64,000 nt of DNA from Sutcliffiella horikoshii (GTDB lineage Bacteria > Bacillota > Bacilli > Bacillales > Bacillaceae_I). The position numbers and the translations under genes were made by a program. The notes below the pieces were generated by a model. That model had not been told where the DNA came from and did not search any database. It was given only the letters and a program-made list of their open reading frames with translations. The stretch is from the NCBI RefSeq assembly GCF_002157855.1, contig NZ_CP020880.1, forward strand, positions 2,232,001 to 2,296,000, written 5' to 3'. Shown here in pieces: positions 47 to 61,482 of this stretch (the first letter of the stretch is position 1; every line of letters begins with the position of its first letter).

Positions 47-445
47 GATGAGGACCTCTTTCCTTCTGATTTCTCGTCACAAAGGTCCTCATATGGGCGA
101 TGAGGACTTCTCATCTCCTAATTCCTTGTTACTGCGGTCTTCATACGGCCGATGAGGACCTTTCTCCTCCTAATTCCTTGTTACCGAAGTCTTCATACGG
201 TCGATGAGGACTTCTCATCTCCTAATTCCTTGTTACTGCGGTCTTCATACGGCCGATGAGGACTTCTCTCCTCTTAATTCCTTGTTACGGAAGTCTTCAT
301 ACGGATGATGAGAACCTTTCTCCTCCTGATTTCTTGTCACGGAGGTCTTCATAACAAAGATGATGCCAATTCTGCTTTTAATTTCTTGTCACTGAAGTCT
401 TCATCCCGACGATCAGATATTACTCTGAGACTATCCGCAATTCGA
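47..445 (+). repeat. 52-bp tandem repeat array 1 (7 units) with end sequence
   Basis: Seven head-to-tail units of 52 bp occupy 47-410. Each opens with GATGAGGAC, has a pyrimidine-rich centre (CTCCTAATTCCTTGTTAC type) and closes with GTCTTCAT plus a 6-nt linker. The unit ends are inverted repeats of each other (GATGAGGAC against GTCTTCATC), so a hairpin can form inside a unit or across a unit boundary. Units 2 and 4 are nearly identical, suggesting recent duplication or conversion; units 6 and 7 are degenerate. After the last unit comes an end sequence ending CAATTCGAT (about 411-447) that recurs after array 3. The unit length is not a multiple of three, so this is not coding. It lies just past the terminator of the minus-strand gene at 508-1494. 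I know no named family for it. Confidence 0.9.
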
Positions 446-467
446 TTATTAATAATTTCCTAAAACT

Positions 468-505
468 ATAAAAAAACCGGGCAGTTTAGCAATTTGCCCG
501 GCTTT
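468..505 (-). terminator. Rho-independent terminator of the DUF3231 gene
   Basis: On the minus strand a 7-bp stem (CCGGGCA/TGCCCGG, 477-483 and 495-501) is followed by a run of T. It sits just after the stop codon at 508. Confidence 0.85.
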
Positions 506-25645: not shown

Positions 25646-25764
25646 AAAGGGCCATCCAATCCAGTCCTTTTAAAAGCTCTTACGAAGAATCGCTTATAAA
25701 TATGAAAACTGAATAAAAATAAATGAATGTCACTTTAAGCATTCTTTCCTCGCAGAATCCTTAA

Positions 25765-25945
25765 AAACAATTAGGCAGGTCTCCTGACTTGCGTTTCAAG
25801 CACATTGCCGACCCTTCCCATGCTTTTGCACAGTGGATATACTCGGCAATATTCAACGCTTACAGTGGCGGGGTCCGTGCTGGATTTTCACCAGCTTCCC
25901 TTTTAACCTTTCTTCACAAAGGCACCTAAATGTTGTATCGTATCA
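25765..25945 (-). promoter_or_regulatory. Cobalamin riboswitch aptamer
   Basis: The minus strand carries the B12-box AGTCAGGAGACCTGCC at 25773-25788, the hallmark of adenosylcobalamin riboswitches. Upstream are the conserved core elements (AAAGGGAAGCTGGTGAAAATCC-type segment near 25882-25904, GACCCCGCCACTGTAAGC-type segment near 25855-25874, and GGTGCC near 25921). The order and spacing fit the class. Some 120 nt separate it from the leader terminator. It should control the whole 13-gene operon, including uptake genes. Confidence 0.95.
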
Positions 25946-38552: not shown

Positions 38553-38735
38553 CGGGATTGAGGTCTTTATACGGGTGATGAGGACATCTCTTGAACTTTC
38601 TCTTCATCACTGAGGTCTTCATCACGGCAGGACATCTCTTGACCTTTTTCCTCGTCACTGAGGTCTTCATCACGGCGATGAGGACATCTCTCCTTCTTTT
38701 TCATCGTTACTGAGGTCTTCATCACGACCATGAGG
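38553..38735 (+). repeat. 52-bp-type repeat array 2 (3 units)
   Basis: Three units begin at about 38577, 38639 and 38676, each GATGAGGACATCTCTTG.. to GAGGTCTTCATCACGGC; the second has lost its leading GATGAG. A half unit (GATTGAGGTCTTTATACGGGT) precedes them. The closing arm here is GAGGTCTTCATC, which pairs over 12 nt with GATGAGGACCTC-type openings. Orientation is the same as arrays 1 and 3, and the right end lies about 45 nt past the terminator of the minus-strand yusW gene. An 81-codon minus-strand frame through it is just repeat read as protein. Confidence 0.85.
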
Positions 38736-58571: not shown

Positions 58572-58955
58572 TTAGTCTATCATTGCATTAATTTTACTTT
58601 TTGGTAATATCACTTGCGTAACTTCCCCTTCACCAATCACGCGGTCTTTAGAAAATATTTGTACTTTTGTGATGATGAAGTTTTTCTTAAGACCCACTAC
58701 CGTTGCTTCTATTGTTAAAACGGTCCCTTCTGTTGCCGGTGCAAGATGCTTTACTTTAACTTCTGCACCCATTCCTTCTTCTGTTTCTTCCAAAACCTCT
58801 AAAATTATTTGTCTTGAAGCCCATTCCATGTGATAGACCATCATTGCGGTGGAATACACTGGATGTACTAATTCCCCTTCAAACTGGGCAAACATTTTGT
58901 TGGTAACAGTGATTTGAATGGAATGTTTCGTACCTATCGTTAGTTCCGGCTTCAT
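58572..58955 (-). CDS. Hot-dog fold thioesterase (FlK-like)
   Basis: A 127-residue single hot-dog domain similar to fluoroacetyl-CoA-type thioesterases. YSTAMMVYHMEWASRQIILE carries the helix with candidate Thr/Ser and the acidic residues, and GMGAEVKVKHLAPATEGTVL contains the family histidine (about 73). It is the first gene of the phenylalanine unit, so an acyl- or arylacyl-CoA made by the downstream dehydrogenase complex is the obvious candidate substrate; inference only. The ATG at 58955 follows GGGGTGA by 4 nt; the frame to 58988 has no site. Confidence 0.82.
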   Translation of the reverse strand: MKPELTIGTKHSIQITVTNKMFAQFEGELVHPVYSTAMMVYHMEWASRQIILEVLEETEEGMGAEVKVKHLAPATEGTVLTIEATVVGLKKNFIITKVQIFSKDRVIGEGEVTQVILPKSKINAMID

Positions 58956-58992
58956 GTATTCACCCCAAAACGTATAACGTTTATTCAACGCT

Positions 58993-59022: not shown

Positions 59023-59090
59023 TAAATTGTAGAAATTTTATAAATAGTCAATCATAAATGGTAAGTAGTTAAGTAGATTGGTTTATCACC

Positions 59091-59145
59091 GCTGTTCCTT
59101 TCCGCAAATGGCTTCGCTTTCCGCGGGACGGTGCTTGAGCCTTGA
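59091..59145. repeat. Truncated copy of the GC-rich dispersed repeat
   Basis: CTTCGCTTTCCGCGGGACGGTGCTTGAGCC matches the left half of the element at 48515-48645 (20-nt excerpts CGCTTTCCGCGGG and CGGTGCTTGAGCC), then similarity stops at 59141. Confidence 0.75.
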
Positions 59146-59206
59146 AATATTGGACTTGGCTAGATCTTCCCTTTGCGCACATCTTTGACTATTTCAATAA
59201 AATCCC

Positions 59207-59632
59207 TAGTCACCAAGGGCTTCATATTGGCGATGAGGACCTCTCTTCTCCTGATTTCTCGTCACTGAGGTCTTCATAACGCCGATGAGGACATCTCTCT
59301 TCCTGATTTCTCGCCACTGATGTCTTCATAACGCCGATGAGGACATCTCTCCTCCTGATTTCTCGCCACTGATGTCTTCATAACTCCGATGAGGACATCT
59401 CTCCTCCTGATTTCTCGTCACTGAGGTCTTCATAACTCCGATGAGGACATCTCTCTTCCTGATTTCTCGTCACTGATGTCTTCATAACGCCGATGAGGAC
59501 ATCTCTCTTCCTGATTTCTCGTCACTGATGTCTTCATAACGCCGATGAGGACATCTCCCCTCCTGATTTCTTCGCACTGAGGTCTTCATCCAAACAATCA
59601 AGAATTACATTGAAGACTAACCACAATTCGAT
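59207..59632 (+). repeat. 52-bp tandem repeat array 3 (7 units) with end sequence
   Basis: Seven full units of exactly 52 bp start at 59232, preceded by a half unit (AGTCACCAAGGGCTTCAT). The consensus is GATGAGGACATCTC, a CTTCCTGATTTCTCGTCACTGA centre part and TGTCTTCATAACGCC. Units 5 and 6 are identical. This is the most regular of the three arrays. After the last unit comes an end sequence ending CACAATTCGAT (to about 59632) that matches the end of array 1. The array lies just past the terminator of the minus-strand ABC ATPase gene, in the same orientation as arrays 1 and 2. Between units GTCTTCAT..ATGAGGAC can form 8-bp hairpins with a 7-nt loop. Confidence 0.93.
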
Positions 59633-59645
59633 CTTCTTAAACAAT

Positions 59646-59681
59646 AAAAAAGAGGAAAATGACCTGGTCATTTTCCCCTCT
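59646..59681 (-). terminator. Terminator of the ABC importer operon
   Basis: AGAGGGGAAAATGACC/GGTCATTTTCCTCT with TTTTTT on the minus strand, directly after the ATPase stop. Confidence 0.92.
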
Positions 59682-59687
59682 ACGTAT

Positions 59688-60482
59688 TCAACTTAGCAAT
59701 GCTCTGTCGTTGGTCATTGCTTGTCCGCGTATTCGCTGGAATTCAGCAAGCAATCTTTCAATGGTAAGAGTTTTCTTTTCCTCTTCTCCCACTTCCAGAA
59801 TGATTTGCCCCTTATCCATCATAATTAAGCGATTACCAAGATCCAGTGCCTGCTGCATGTTGTGAGTTACCATCAATGTCGTCAATTCTTTATCTGCAAC
59901 AATTTCTTTCGTGATATTGGTAATCAGTTCTGCACGAGATGGATCAAGAGCAGCGGTATGCTCATCCAAAAGGAGGATATCAGGCTCAGTGAACGTTGCC
60001 ATCAAAAGGGACAGTGCTTGCCTTTCCCCACCTGAAAGCAATCCAACTTTAGCACTTAATCTATTTTCCAAACCAAGGTGCAGGGTTTCCAGCACCTCTT
60101 TGAAATACGTTTTTCTCTTTTTAGTCACGCCCATCTTTAATGTGCGATTTTTATTCCGTGAATAAGCCATAGCCAGATTCTCTTCAATTGTCATTGTAGG
60201 AGCCGTTCCAGCCATTGGGTCCTGGAACACCCTTCCAATATATCTGGCTCTTTTGTGCTCTGCCATATAGGTGACATCACGGCCATCAATCTCTACTTTT
60301 CCGGTATCAGGCGTCAGTACCCCTGAAATCATGTTCATCAAGGTGGACTTACCGGCACCATTACTACCGATGATGGTGACAAAATCTCCTTTTTTCAAGG
60401 AAAGGTTGATGGTATCAAGCGCATTTTTTTCATCTAATGTTCCTTCATTGAAGATTTTGTTAATCTGTGTTAAATGTAGCAC
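59688..60482 (-). CDS. ABC transporter ATP-binding protein (TrpX/DUF534-type system)
   Basis: A 264-residue ABC ATPase. Walker A GSNGAGKST (about 38-46), Q-loop in VFQDPMAGT, signature LLSGGERQALSLL (about 147-159), Walker B DILLLDEHTAALDP (about 168-181; the usual EP is EH) and switch His in VTHNMQQALDLG. This EHTAALDP form is typical of the group that works with a pfam04392 binding protein. The GTG at 60482 follows AAGGGGG by 6 nt; translation overlaps the permease gene by 23 nt. Confidence 0.9.
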   Translation of the reverse strand: MLHLTQINKIFNEGTLDEKNALDTINLSLKKGDFVTIIGSNGAGKSTLMNMISGVLTPDTGKVEIDGRDVTYMAEHKRARYIGRVFQDPMAGTAPTMTIEENLAMAYSRNKNRTLKMGVTKKRKTYFKEVLETLHLGLENRLSAKVGLLSGGERQALSLLMATFTEPDILLLDEHTAALDPSRAELITNITKEIVADKELTTLMVTHNMQQALDLGNRLIMMDKGQIILEVGEEEKKTLTIERLLAEFQRIRGQAMTNDRALLS

Positions 60483-61482
60483 GTTGATCCCCCTTTTCAT
60501 TGGCAGATTGTAAAGATCCCAGTTTTAGCATCTTCTGTTTTTTTCTCTTTCGATCTTTGTAGCTATCAATGAATTTAGGGGTGATAAGGGCCAAGATAAC
60601 AATCGTTGCCGTAATGGCTTTCAGGTCACCGGTTTCTAAGAATTCTACCCTTAATGCAAGCGTCACAACAATACGATAGATGATGGCCCCACCTATTACA
60701 GCAAAAGTCGTCCATGCAATCGTTTTTGTACCAAAAATAGCCTCTCCAATAATGACAGATGCCAATCCGATTATAATCATCCCGATTCCCATCCCAACGT
60801 CTGCATATCCGCCATGCTGGGCAATCAATGCACCAGAAAATGCAACCATGGCATTGGAAATCCCGAGACCAAGAATAACCAGTCCGCTTGTGTTGGCAGA
60901 AAGGCTACGAATCATCCGCTTATTATCACCGGTCGCTCTAATTGCCAAACCGATTTCCGTTTTCAAAAATAAATCAGTTATGATTTTAATTGCAAACGTG
61001 ACAATCAACATGATGAAAATAATTCCCCACGTTCTAGGAACAAAAGCTCCTAATCCGATAGTGGAAAAGATATTGTTTAAAAATTCATCTATTCCGGTAT
61101 TCCCCCACCAGGAACGGATGTTGGTGAAAAAAGTATCACTGTTTAATAACGGCACATTTGATCTTCCCATTATTCGCAAATTGATGGAATAAAGGGCAAT
61201 CATCATTAAAATACCTGATAATAGTGGATTAATCTTTCCAAACGTATGTAAGGAACCGGTGATGCATCCTGCGATAAATCCTGCAAACATCGCCACCACT
61301 GTAGCTGTGATAGGACTATATCCGCTGACAATCATTGTCGCAGCAACCGCAGCGCCAGTTACAAAGCTACCATCTACCGTCAAATCGGGAAAATCAAGGA
61401 CCCTAAAGGAAAGATATACCCCTAGGGCCATGATTGCGTAGATGATTCCCAATTCGACTGAACCAAAAATTGCTGTTATCAT
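60460..61482 (-). CDS. ABC transporter permease (branched-chain/TrpY-type)
   Basis: A 340-residue permease of the BPD_transp_2 family with about nine helices. GIIYAIMALGVYLSFRVLDFPDLTVDGSF near the N-terminus (about 12-40, in two helices) is the usual pattern in systems paired with pfam04392 lipoproteins; GLAIRATGDNKRMIRSLSANTSG (about 186-208) is the ATPase-coupling loop. The C-terminal about 35 residues are strongly basic (YKDRKRKKQK). GAGGAGATGA precedes the ATG. 33 nt after the binding-protein gene. Confidence 0.9.
   Translation of the reverse strand: MITAIFGSVELGIIYAIMALGVYLSFRVLDFPDLTVDGSFVTGAAVAATMIVSGYSPITATVVAMFAGFIAGCITGSLHTFGKINPLLSGILMMIALYSINLRIMGRSNVPLLNSDTFFTNIRSWWGNTGIDEFLNNIFSTIGLGAFVPRTWGIIFIMLIVTFAIKIITDLFLKTEIGLAIRATGDNKRMIRSLSANTSGLVILGLGISNAMVAFSGALIAQHGGYADVGMGIGMIIIGLASVIIGEAIFGTKTIAWTTFAVIGGAIIYRIVVTLALRVEFLETGDLKAITATIVILALITPKFIDSYKDRKRKKQKMLKLGSLQSANEKGDQRATFNTD

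Follow-up and report, generated by a model that had tools for sequence, protein, structure and literature searches.

Intergenic 52-bp tandem arrays of interrupted palindromes in Sutcliffiella horikoshii and their orientation along the replichores

The window analysed here, a stretch of 64,000 nucleotides of the Sutcliffiella horikoshii chromosome (positions 2,232,001-2,296,000 of 4,277,585 bp), holds three tandem arrays of a 52-bp unit that recurs between genes far beyond it and is oriented with replication. We tentatively interpret them, with a probability of roughly 40%, as helically phased double-stranded DNA arrays past gene 3′ ends with a putative architectural or protein-binding role. 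A previous sequence-only reading of the window was supported in part: the arrays form one non-coding family, as it had proposed, which is far wider than the window, and it had seen neither the replication orientation nor the targeting by insertion sequences nor the other array families.

Anatomy of the arrays

TRF and direct reading confirmed that the three arrays share one consensus, the period of 52 bp following from TRF and from the positions of the palindromes (Table 1). The unit consists of an interrupted palindrome, GTCYTCAT-N7-ATGARGAC, and a 29-bp spacer, and is referred to below as the GTCYTCAT family; in the S. horikoshii genome the spacer is pyrimidine-rich on one strand, and the strand sign of an array denotes the strand of this pyrimidine-rich spacer, which is the lagging strand in the window. 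TRF placed the arrays at 47-413, 38559-38735 and 59209-59589. Palindrome starts are spaced 52 bp throughout arrays 1 and 3, in line with the unit length claimed before, and in array 2 one step is 4 bp short, with 100 bp across two units from 38563 to 38663. Units 5 (59440-59491) and 6 (59492-59543) of array 3, read directly in the phase of the sequence-only reading, are identical as it had stated, and units 2 and 4 of array 1, called near-identical, agree at 94% in a phase shifted against the earlier one.

Table 1. Coordinates of arrays, neighbouring genes and related elements (window positions unless a chromosome position or another locus is named)
Feature	Position	Strand	Details
Array 1	47..413	+	palindromes at 33 (degenerate), 85, 137, 189, 241, 293, 345, 397 (degenerate)
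Array 1 tail	414..505	+	conserved with other loci; runs into terminator-like hairpin of minus-strand gene 508-1494
Array 2	38553..38735	+	palindromes at 38563, 38663, 38715; shortened unit between first and second
Array 3 leader	59150..59217	+	resembles leaders at several other loci of the genome
Array 3	59209..59595	+	palindromes at 59218, 59270, 59322, 59374, 59426, 59478, 59530, 59582 (degenerate)
Array 3 tail and terminator-like hairpin	59596..59683	+	hairpin of minus-strand gene 59688-60500
ABC transporter ATPase gene	59688..60500	-	PF00005; array 3 comes after its 3′ end
FlK-type thioesterase gene	58572..58988	-	downstream of array 3; served as anchor for comparing this site across relatives
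IS256-like element	L089:5326-6573	-	PF00872
IS3-like element	L096:3428-4980	+	PF01527 and PF00665
CTTCGGGC/TTACCGTTTT 52-bp arrays	L391:10103-10380, L362, L363, L376, L389, L121, L096		
GGTNACC half-site 53-bp arrays	L344:2876-4847, L075:6800-8691		intergenic; both split by IS256-like element
42-43-bp arrays	L114:14919-15130 region, L349, L406, L419		non-coding; about four helical turns
20-21-bp arrays	e.g. chromosome 1771929-1772040 and 3158161-3158272		some share a TTTCTTGATATAT-like unit

A two-unit pattern with at most 3 mismatches gave 174 forward matches in the genome and 0 when read backwards, and block-shuffled sequence gave 13 TRF arrays at periods 13-23 and none with a period above 23, a comparison that controls for chance detection only, as block shuffling destroys tandem repeats. 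Because of these two results the arrays are not products of chance. The many copies in the genome and in relatives settle one point on which the sequence-only reading had made its case depend, and the other, a match to a named family, did not materialise in Rfam, whose one match in the window is a cobalamin riboswitch elsewhere (25757-25944, minus strand, 131.8 bits); two sub-threshold matches over array 3 scored 19.5 and 18.7 bits where 58.8 and 47 were required. A coding repeat is ruled out by a unit length of 52, which is not divisible by 3, as had been argued, and by the intergenic position of the arrays. Likewise, a CRISPR array is ruled out by spacers that are alike within one array and not unique, and a viral origin was rejected with 0 stretches in viral_contigs.

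Whole elements with similar leader and tail were found at several loci. Several leaders (chromosome 1240015, 1644169, 3480471 and others) carry a terminator-like hairpin, ACGTCCCAAGA..TCTTGGGACGTTTT, and TAAAGAACAAAA-like strings occur at both element ends. Beside array 3, at 59080-59140, a TTCCGCAAATGGCTTCGCTTTCCGCGGGACGG string was seen, and two relatives (L278 and L282) have a similar string close to the same gene.

Replication orientation, gene context and insertion sequences

GC skew drops from +0.087 in the 20 kb before 2.10 Mb to -0.071 in the 20 kb that follow, and the terminus was positioned by this skew in 20-kb steps. The switch at 2.10 Mb puts the window on the replichore with minus as its leading strand, in agreement with most of its genes (45 of 56 called ORFs of at least 300 bp on minus; genes are longest-ORF calls rather than the output of a trained gene finder). 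BLAST of array 3 against the genome returned 48 matches; 17 lie below 2.1 Mb, all on minus, and 31 above it, all on plus, so that 48 of 48 follow the replichore. A list from the pattern held 54 pieces, corresponding to about 47 arrays after joining of pieces parted by insertion sequences; it was incomplete, as an additional split array at 2.169 Mb turned up later, giving about 48 arrays in the examined part.

Array statistics cover 2.18 of 4.28 Mb, enriched for the GTCYTCAT family except in a spaced sample, and are based on TRF, which misses divergent arrays, with arrays split by an insertion sequence counted as separate pieces. The purine-rich strand was the leading strand in 70 of 74 pieces with a period of 50-54, of which 3 lie at an edge of the sequence examined, 21 adjoin an insertion sequence and 50 are of neither kind. 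All of these 50 have the purines on the leading strand, be they between leading-strand genes (31), convergent genes (17) or lagging-strand genes (2), and so do 17 of the 21 pieces adjoining an insertion sequence, with 4 exceptions. An orientation set only by the neighbouring gene, a reading first prompted by two arrays near the terminus, was rejected, as the 17/17 convergent and 2/2 lagging-gene contexts without insertion sequence follow replication. The leading-strand purine fraction was 0.621 in arrays compared to 0.527 in array-free intergenic DNA (1035 segments). An excess of A on the leading strand of low-GC Firmicutes has been put down to selection (PMC3174206), and part of the purine bias of the arrays may be general to such leading strands. 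Exceptions to the replichore rule are the split array at 2.169 Mb, a 53-bp array of another family at 495,876-497,847 and a weak case at 2,187,813, and an array at 2,214,605 is mixed, with spacers that obey the rule and profile matches that oppose it. Three of these four lie at most 0.12 Mb from the skew switch, a region in which forks may not run the same way in every cell.

The arrays tend to follow genes rather than to precede them. When located between two leading-strand genes (32 arrays), they lay a median of 80.5 bp from the 3′ end upstream and 218.5 bp from the gene that follows, 24 of the 32 being nearer the upstream 3′ end. Direct reading, by which the terminator-like hairpins beside arrays 1 and 3 were identified, placed the array beyond the gene's terminator-like hairpin at all three window loci. 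In other genomes, mostly of the same genus, the neighbours of 102 arrays (some loci overlap) were oriented ++ (39), -- (29), convergently (21) or divergently (4), with 9 undetermined.

Two kinds of insertion sequence are concentrated in the arrays. All 8 copies of an IS256-like element lie in arrays, six in or at the edge of GTCYTCAT-family arrays and two in 53-bp arrays, with target duplications of 8-9 bp. An IS3-like element has 5 copies, four of them in arrays at one exact base, after the 16th palindrome base, with 3-bp duplications CGA, CTA, TTA and TTA, and the fifth elsewhere. As arrays of period 50-54 make up 0.9% of the examined sequence, the chance of finding at least 6 of 8 IS256-like copies in arrays is 1.5e-11 (8e-7 if intergenic DNA alone is considered), and that of at least 4 of 5 IS3-like copies is 3e-8 (5e-5). 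Insertion sequences that target REP are known from five families, IS3 and IS256 included (PMC1525189), and those described here are their array-targeting counterpart in Bacillales.

Spread in the Bacillales and a common unit length

The two-unit pattern was found in 13 of 16 genomes of the genus and in 1 of 45 others, and an order survey, for which relatives were a draw and not all species, gave 25 positives among 397 genomes, spread over 8 of 135 genera and 7 families, with 0 for the control. Among the matches listed, carriers were S. horikoshii, S. rhizosphaerae, Neobacillus mesonae, N. bataviensis, N. rhizophilus, N. citreus, Mesobacillus foraminis, Ureibacillus manganicus, Lysinibacillus composti, Bacillus tianshenii, Halalkalibacter akibai and Terrihalobacillus insolitus. 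As 3 of the 16 genus genomes and most of the order have no array, the arrays are dispensable. At 146 loci, distant genera included, 761 of 817 spacings of up to 130 bp equal 52 and 788 fall at 51-53, a count in which the search itself fixed one 52-bp step per locus; the GTCYTCAT family thus keeps its length in other families of the order.

Orthologous sites were compared via anchor genes. Of 15 genomes with the anchor of array 3, seven carry 4 to 15 palindromes at the site, isolated palindromes are present in two, and the 1.5-kb flanks of the remaining six contain none; at the array 2 site (nine genomes) three palindromes are present only in this genome and its nearest match, and two others have a single weak match. 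Arrays are inherited, expand and shrink, and are missing from some sites, and the earlier suggestion that copy number is still changing holds, since one orthologous site shows anywhere from 1 to 15 recognisable palindromes. Single palindromes (GTCNTCAT-N7-ATGANGAC, at most 1 mismatch) gave 75 forward and 24 reversed-control matches in 50 array-free genomes, a threefold excess at about 1.5 per genome in 36 of the 50. From this excess no regulon was inferred, and a widespread single-site regulator was rejected.

The unit length extends to arrays of other sequence. In the spaced sample (81 stretches, 1,617,585 bp) TRF found 76 non-coding arrays, 40 of them with a period of at least 28 bp, distributed over 52 bp (32), 53 (4), 51 (1), 42 (2) and 43 (1), that is 37 of 40 at 51-53; coding arrays of the sample showed one at 52 and no peak. 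Merging all 2.18 Mb led to 74 of 81 arrays at 51-53, and outside the GTCYTCAT family to 22 of 29, the others having periods of 29, 41, 42 (three), 43 and 61. A CTTCGGGC/TTACCGTTTT group, a mostly 53-bp GGTNACC group and some singletons share little sequence with one another. Some units counted within the GTCYTCAT family are variants, such as GTCCTCGT..ACGAGGAC, so that some of these groups could be related by distant descent. All 14 matches of the CTTCGGGC family follow the replichore; the family was detected in 7 of 61 genomes, each of them belonging to the genus. A class of non-coding arrays with 20-21 bp comprises 33 arrays in the genome. With 10.4 bp per turn, two, four and five turns correspond to 20.8, 41.6 and 52.0 bp, and three-turn arrays were missing among the arrays found in the merged 2.18 Mb. 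The proposal of a five-turn spacing was strengthened by the sequence-unrelated families at 51-53 bp in the same genome. As by-catch from other genomes, array-bearing loci totalling 676,789 bp contained six further non-coding arrays with periods of at least 28, at 34, 37, 41 and 52 (three); two at 52 came from another 50,957 bp, and none from 104,130 bp of array-free genomes.

Competing explanations and meaning

The phased-array reading takes up the observed placement of the arrays, which come after the 3′ ends of mostly leading-strand genes and have their purine-rich strand as the leading strand, and proposes that interrupted palindromes five helical turns apart each present their site on the same helix face. 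These phased sites may be bound by one or more nucleoid or DNA-topology proteins, and bound arrays might mark or organise the borders of transcription units in step with fork direction, while unequal recombination or slippage would change the unit number and also homogenise each array. The period would then be selected for helical phase. Observations in favour are the exact period in distant genera, the length common to sequence-unrelated families of one genome, conserved half-sites with position 4 free, the placement past 3′ ends and the replication orientation of two unrelated families. Against it stand the sporadic distribution, the excess of single palindromes in array-free genomes, the by-catch periods of 34 and 37 and five complementary double changes in the palindromes where about one was expected. 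Helical phasing alone would allow 42 or 62 bp equally well, yet the GTCYTCAT family is almost only at 52, and no three-turn class appeared. No candidate binding protein was found for the arrays. A known parallel is the sopC centromere of plasmid F, with 43-bp tandem repeats whose palindromes are each bound by a ParB-type protein; sopC is one plasmid locus, whereas the arrays here number dozens on a chromosome and have no known binder. AIMS (architecture imparting sequences) resemble the arrays in their strand-wise layout along replichores but are 8-bp motifs and not arrays (PMC5993296).

The main and closest rival, a real possibility in our view, is a selfish or neutral minisatellite, in which few ancestral tandem repeats would have spread by copying of whole elements, with the period kept by homogenisation, the arrays tolerated past terminators and the purine bias due to strand-specific mutation or to the way copies spread. 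Non-coding tandem units of changing number, as found here, are what defines intergenic minisatellites of the MIRU kind; mycobacterial MIRU and staphylococcal STAR are likewise interspersed intergenic tandem arrays with variable unit number, which to our knowledge are unrelated in sequence to the 52-bp unit and have no fixed-phase palindrome. Whole elements with similar leader and tail at several loci, orthologous arrays of 4 to 15 palindromes beside array-free alleles, sporadic spread and sequence divergence from array to array all fit such an origin, as does the purine lean of average intergenic DNA (0.527), which the arrays nevertheless exceed well (0.621). A single length among unrelated sequences is harder to reconcile with it, as a unit losing most of its sequence identity should often change length too. 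BrickBuilt, a minisatellite within a MITE of Porphyromonas gingivalis, is similar in that a tandem unit lies between leader and tail, always intergenic and at many loci, and differs by its 23-bp unit and by the fact that the portion of its description at hand mentions no replichore orientation (PMC4596501).

Read-through or antisense transcripts that fold into hairpin arrays, and thereby stop or stabilise transcripts, are an improbable explanation, although the position past gene 3′ ends would suit it. A comparison of 1159 palindromes from 193 arrays showed that the two arms change independently of each other at position 4, with no co-variation. Among 755 distinct palindromes (14 scored positions), 40 have exactly two changes, 34 of them in different pairs, 5 complementary in one pair and 1 G-T; the 5 of 40 speak for a hairpin, and symmetric arm changes occur in five loci, one with four units. 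This pattern appears to favour half-sites that are read independently, with a hairpin as the less favoured possibility, and the structured RNA of the sequence-only reading is accordingly disfavoured by arms that mostly change singly, despite the symmetric changes. Units of the GTCYTCAT family fold better than mononucleotide shuffles (mean z -2.33, 52 arrays; other families -0.86, 27 arrays), and canonical-strand spacers are G-poor and pyrimidine-rich, a bias that is weaker in other genera. An excess of G-T over A-C mispairs on the canonical strand (24 versus 12 arrays) is another point for the RNA reading, but stems from position 4 alone (105 T-G versus 9 C-A), A-C exceeding G-T elsewhere. Further counterpoints are the location of the three window arrays beyond the terminator-like hairpin, the lack of an Rfam match and the fact that RNA hairpins need no fixed length.

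Still less probable is a replication-coupled mobility of hairpins as single-strand DNA, in the manner of REP moved by Y1 (RAYT) transposases on the lagging strand, to which replication orientation, palindromes and intergenic placement would conform. REP/BIME are also high-copy short intergenic interrupted palindromes (PMC3733652, PMC1525189) and are targeted by insertion sequences from families such as IS3 and IS256 (PMC1525189), whereas GTCYTCAT arrays consist of same-direction tandem units of fixed 52 bp in Bacillales. Neighbouring palindromes stand head-to-tail, not alternating as in REP/BIME, and per-array consensus sequences have no GTAG or CGTC tag as a fixed part of the unit, CGTC being present in some spacers only. 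An association with Y1/RAYT was rejected, as Y1_Tnp (PF01797) was found in 24 of 25 genomes with arrays and in 21 of 25 without, and one bearer, G259, has none. Of the earlier idea of a mobile repeat, the sites with and without array in relatives remain in support, while Y1 transposases do not track the presence of arrays.

Searches of the open-access PMC literature brought up no description of the 52-bp repeat. Bacterial intergenic repeats are classed by sequence, and here families with little common sequence share unit length and fork orientation. Such same-way intergenic blocks of about 52 bases hint at an undescribed chromosome landmark. That replication-polar five-turn arrays of several unrelated families might amount to an undescribed architectural or segregation system of some Bacillales, which conserves spacing and not sequence, is a bolder and rather doubtful proposition. 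With these arrays, the old question whether intergenic arrays do anything becomes directly testable.
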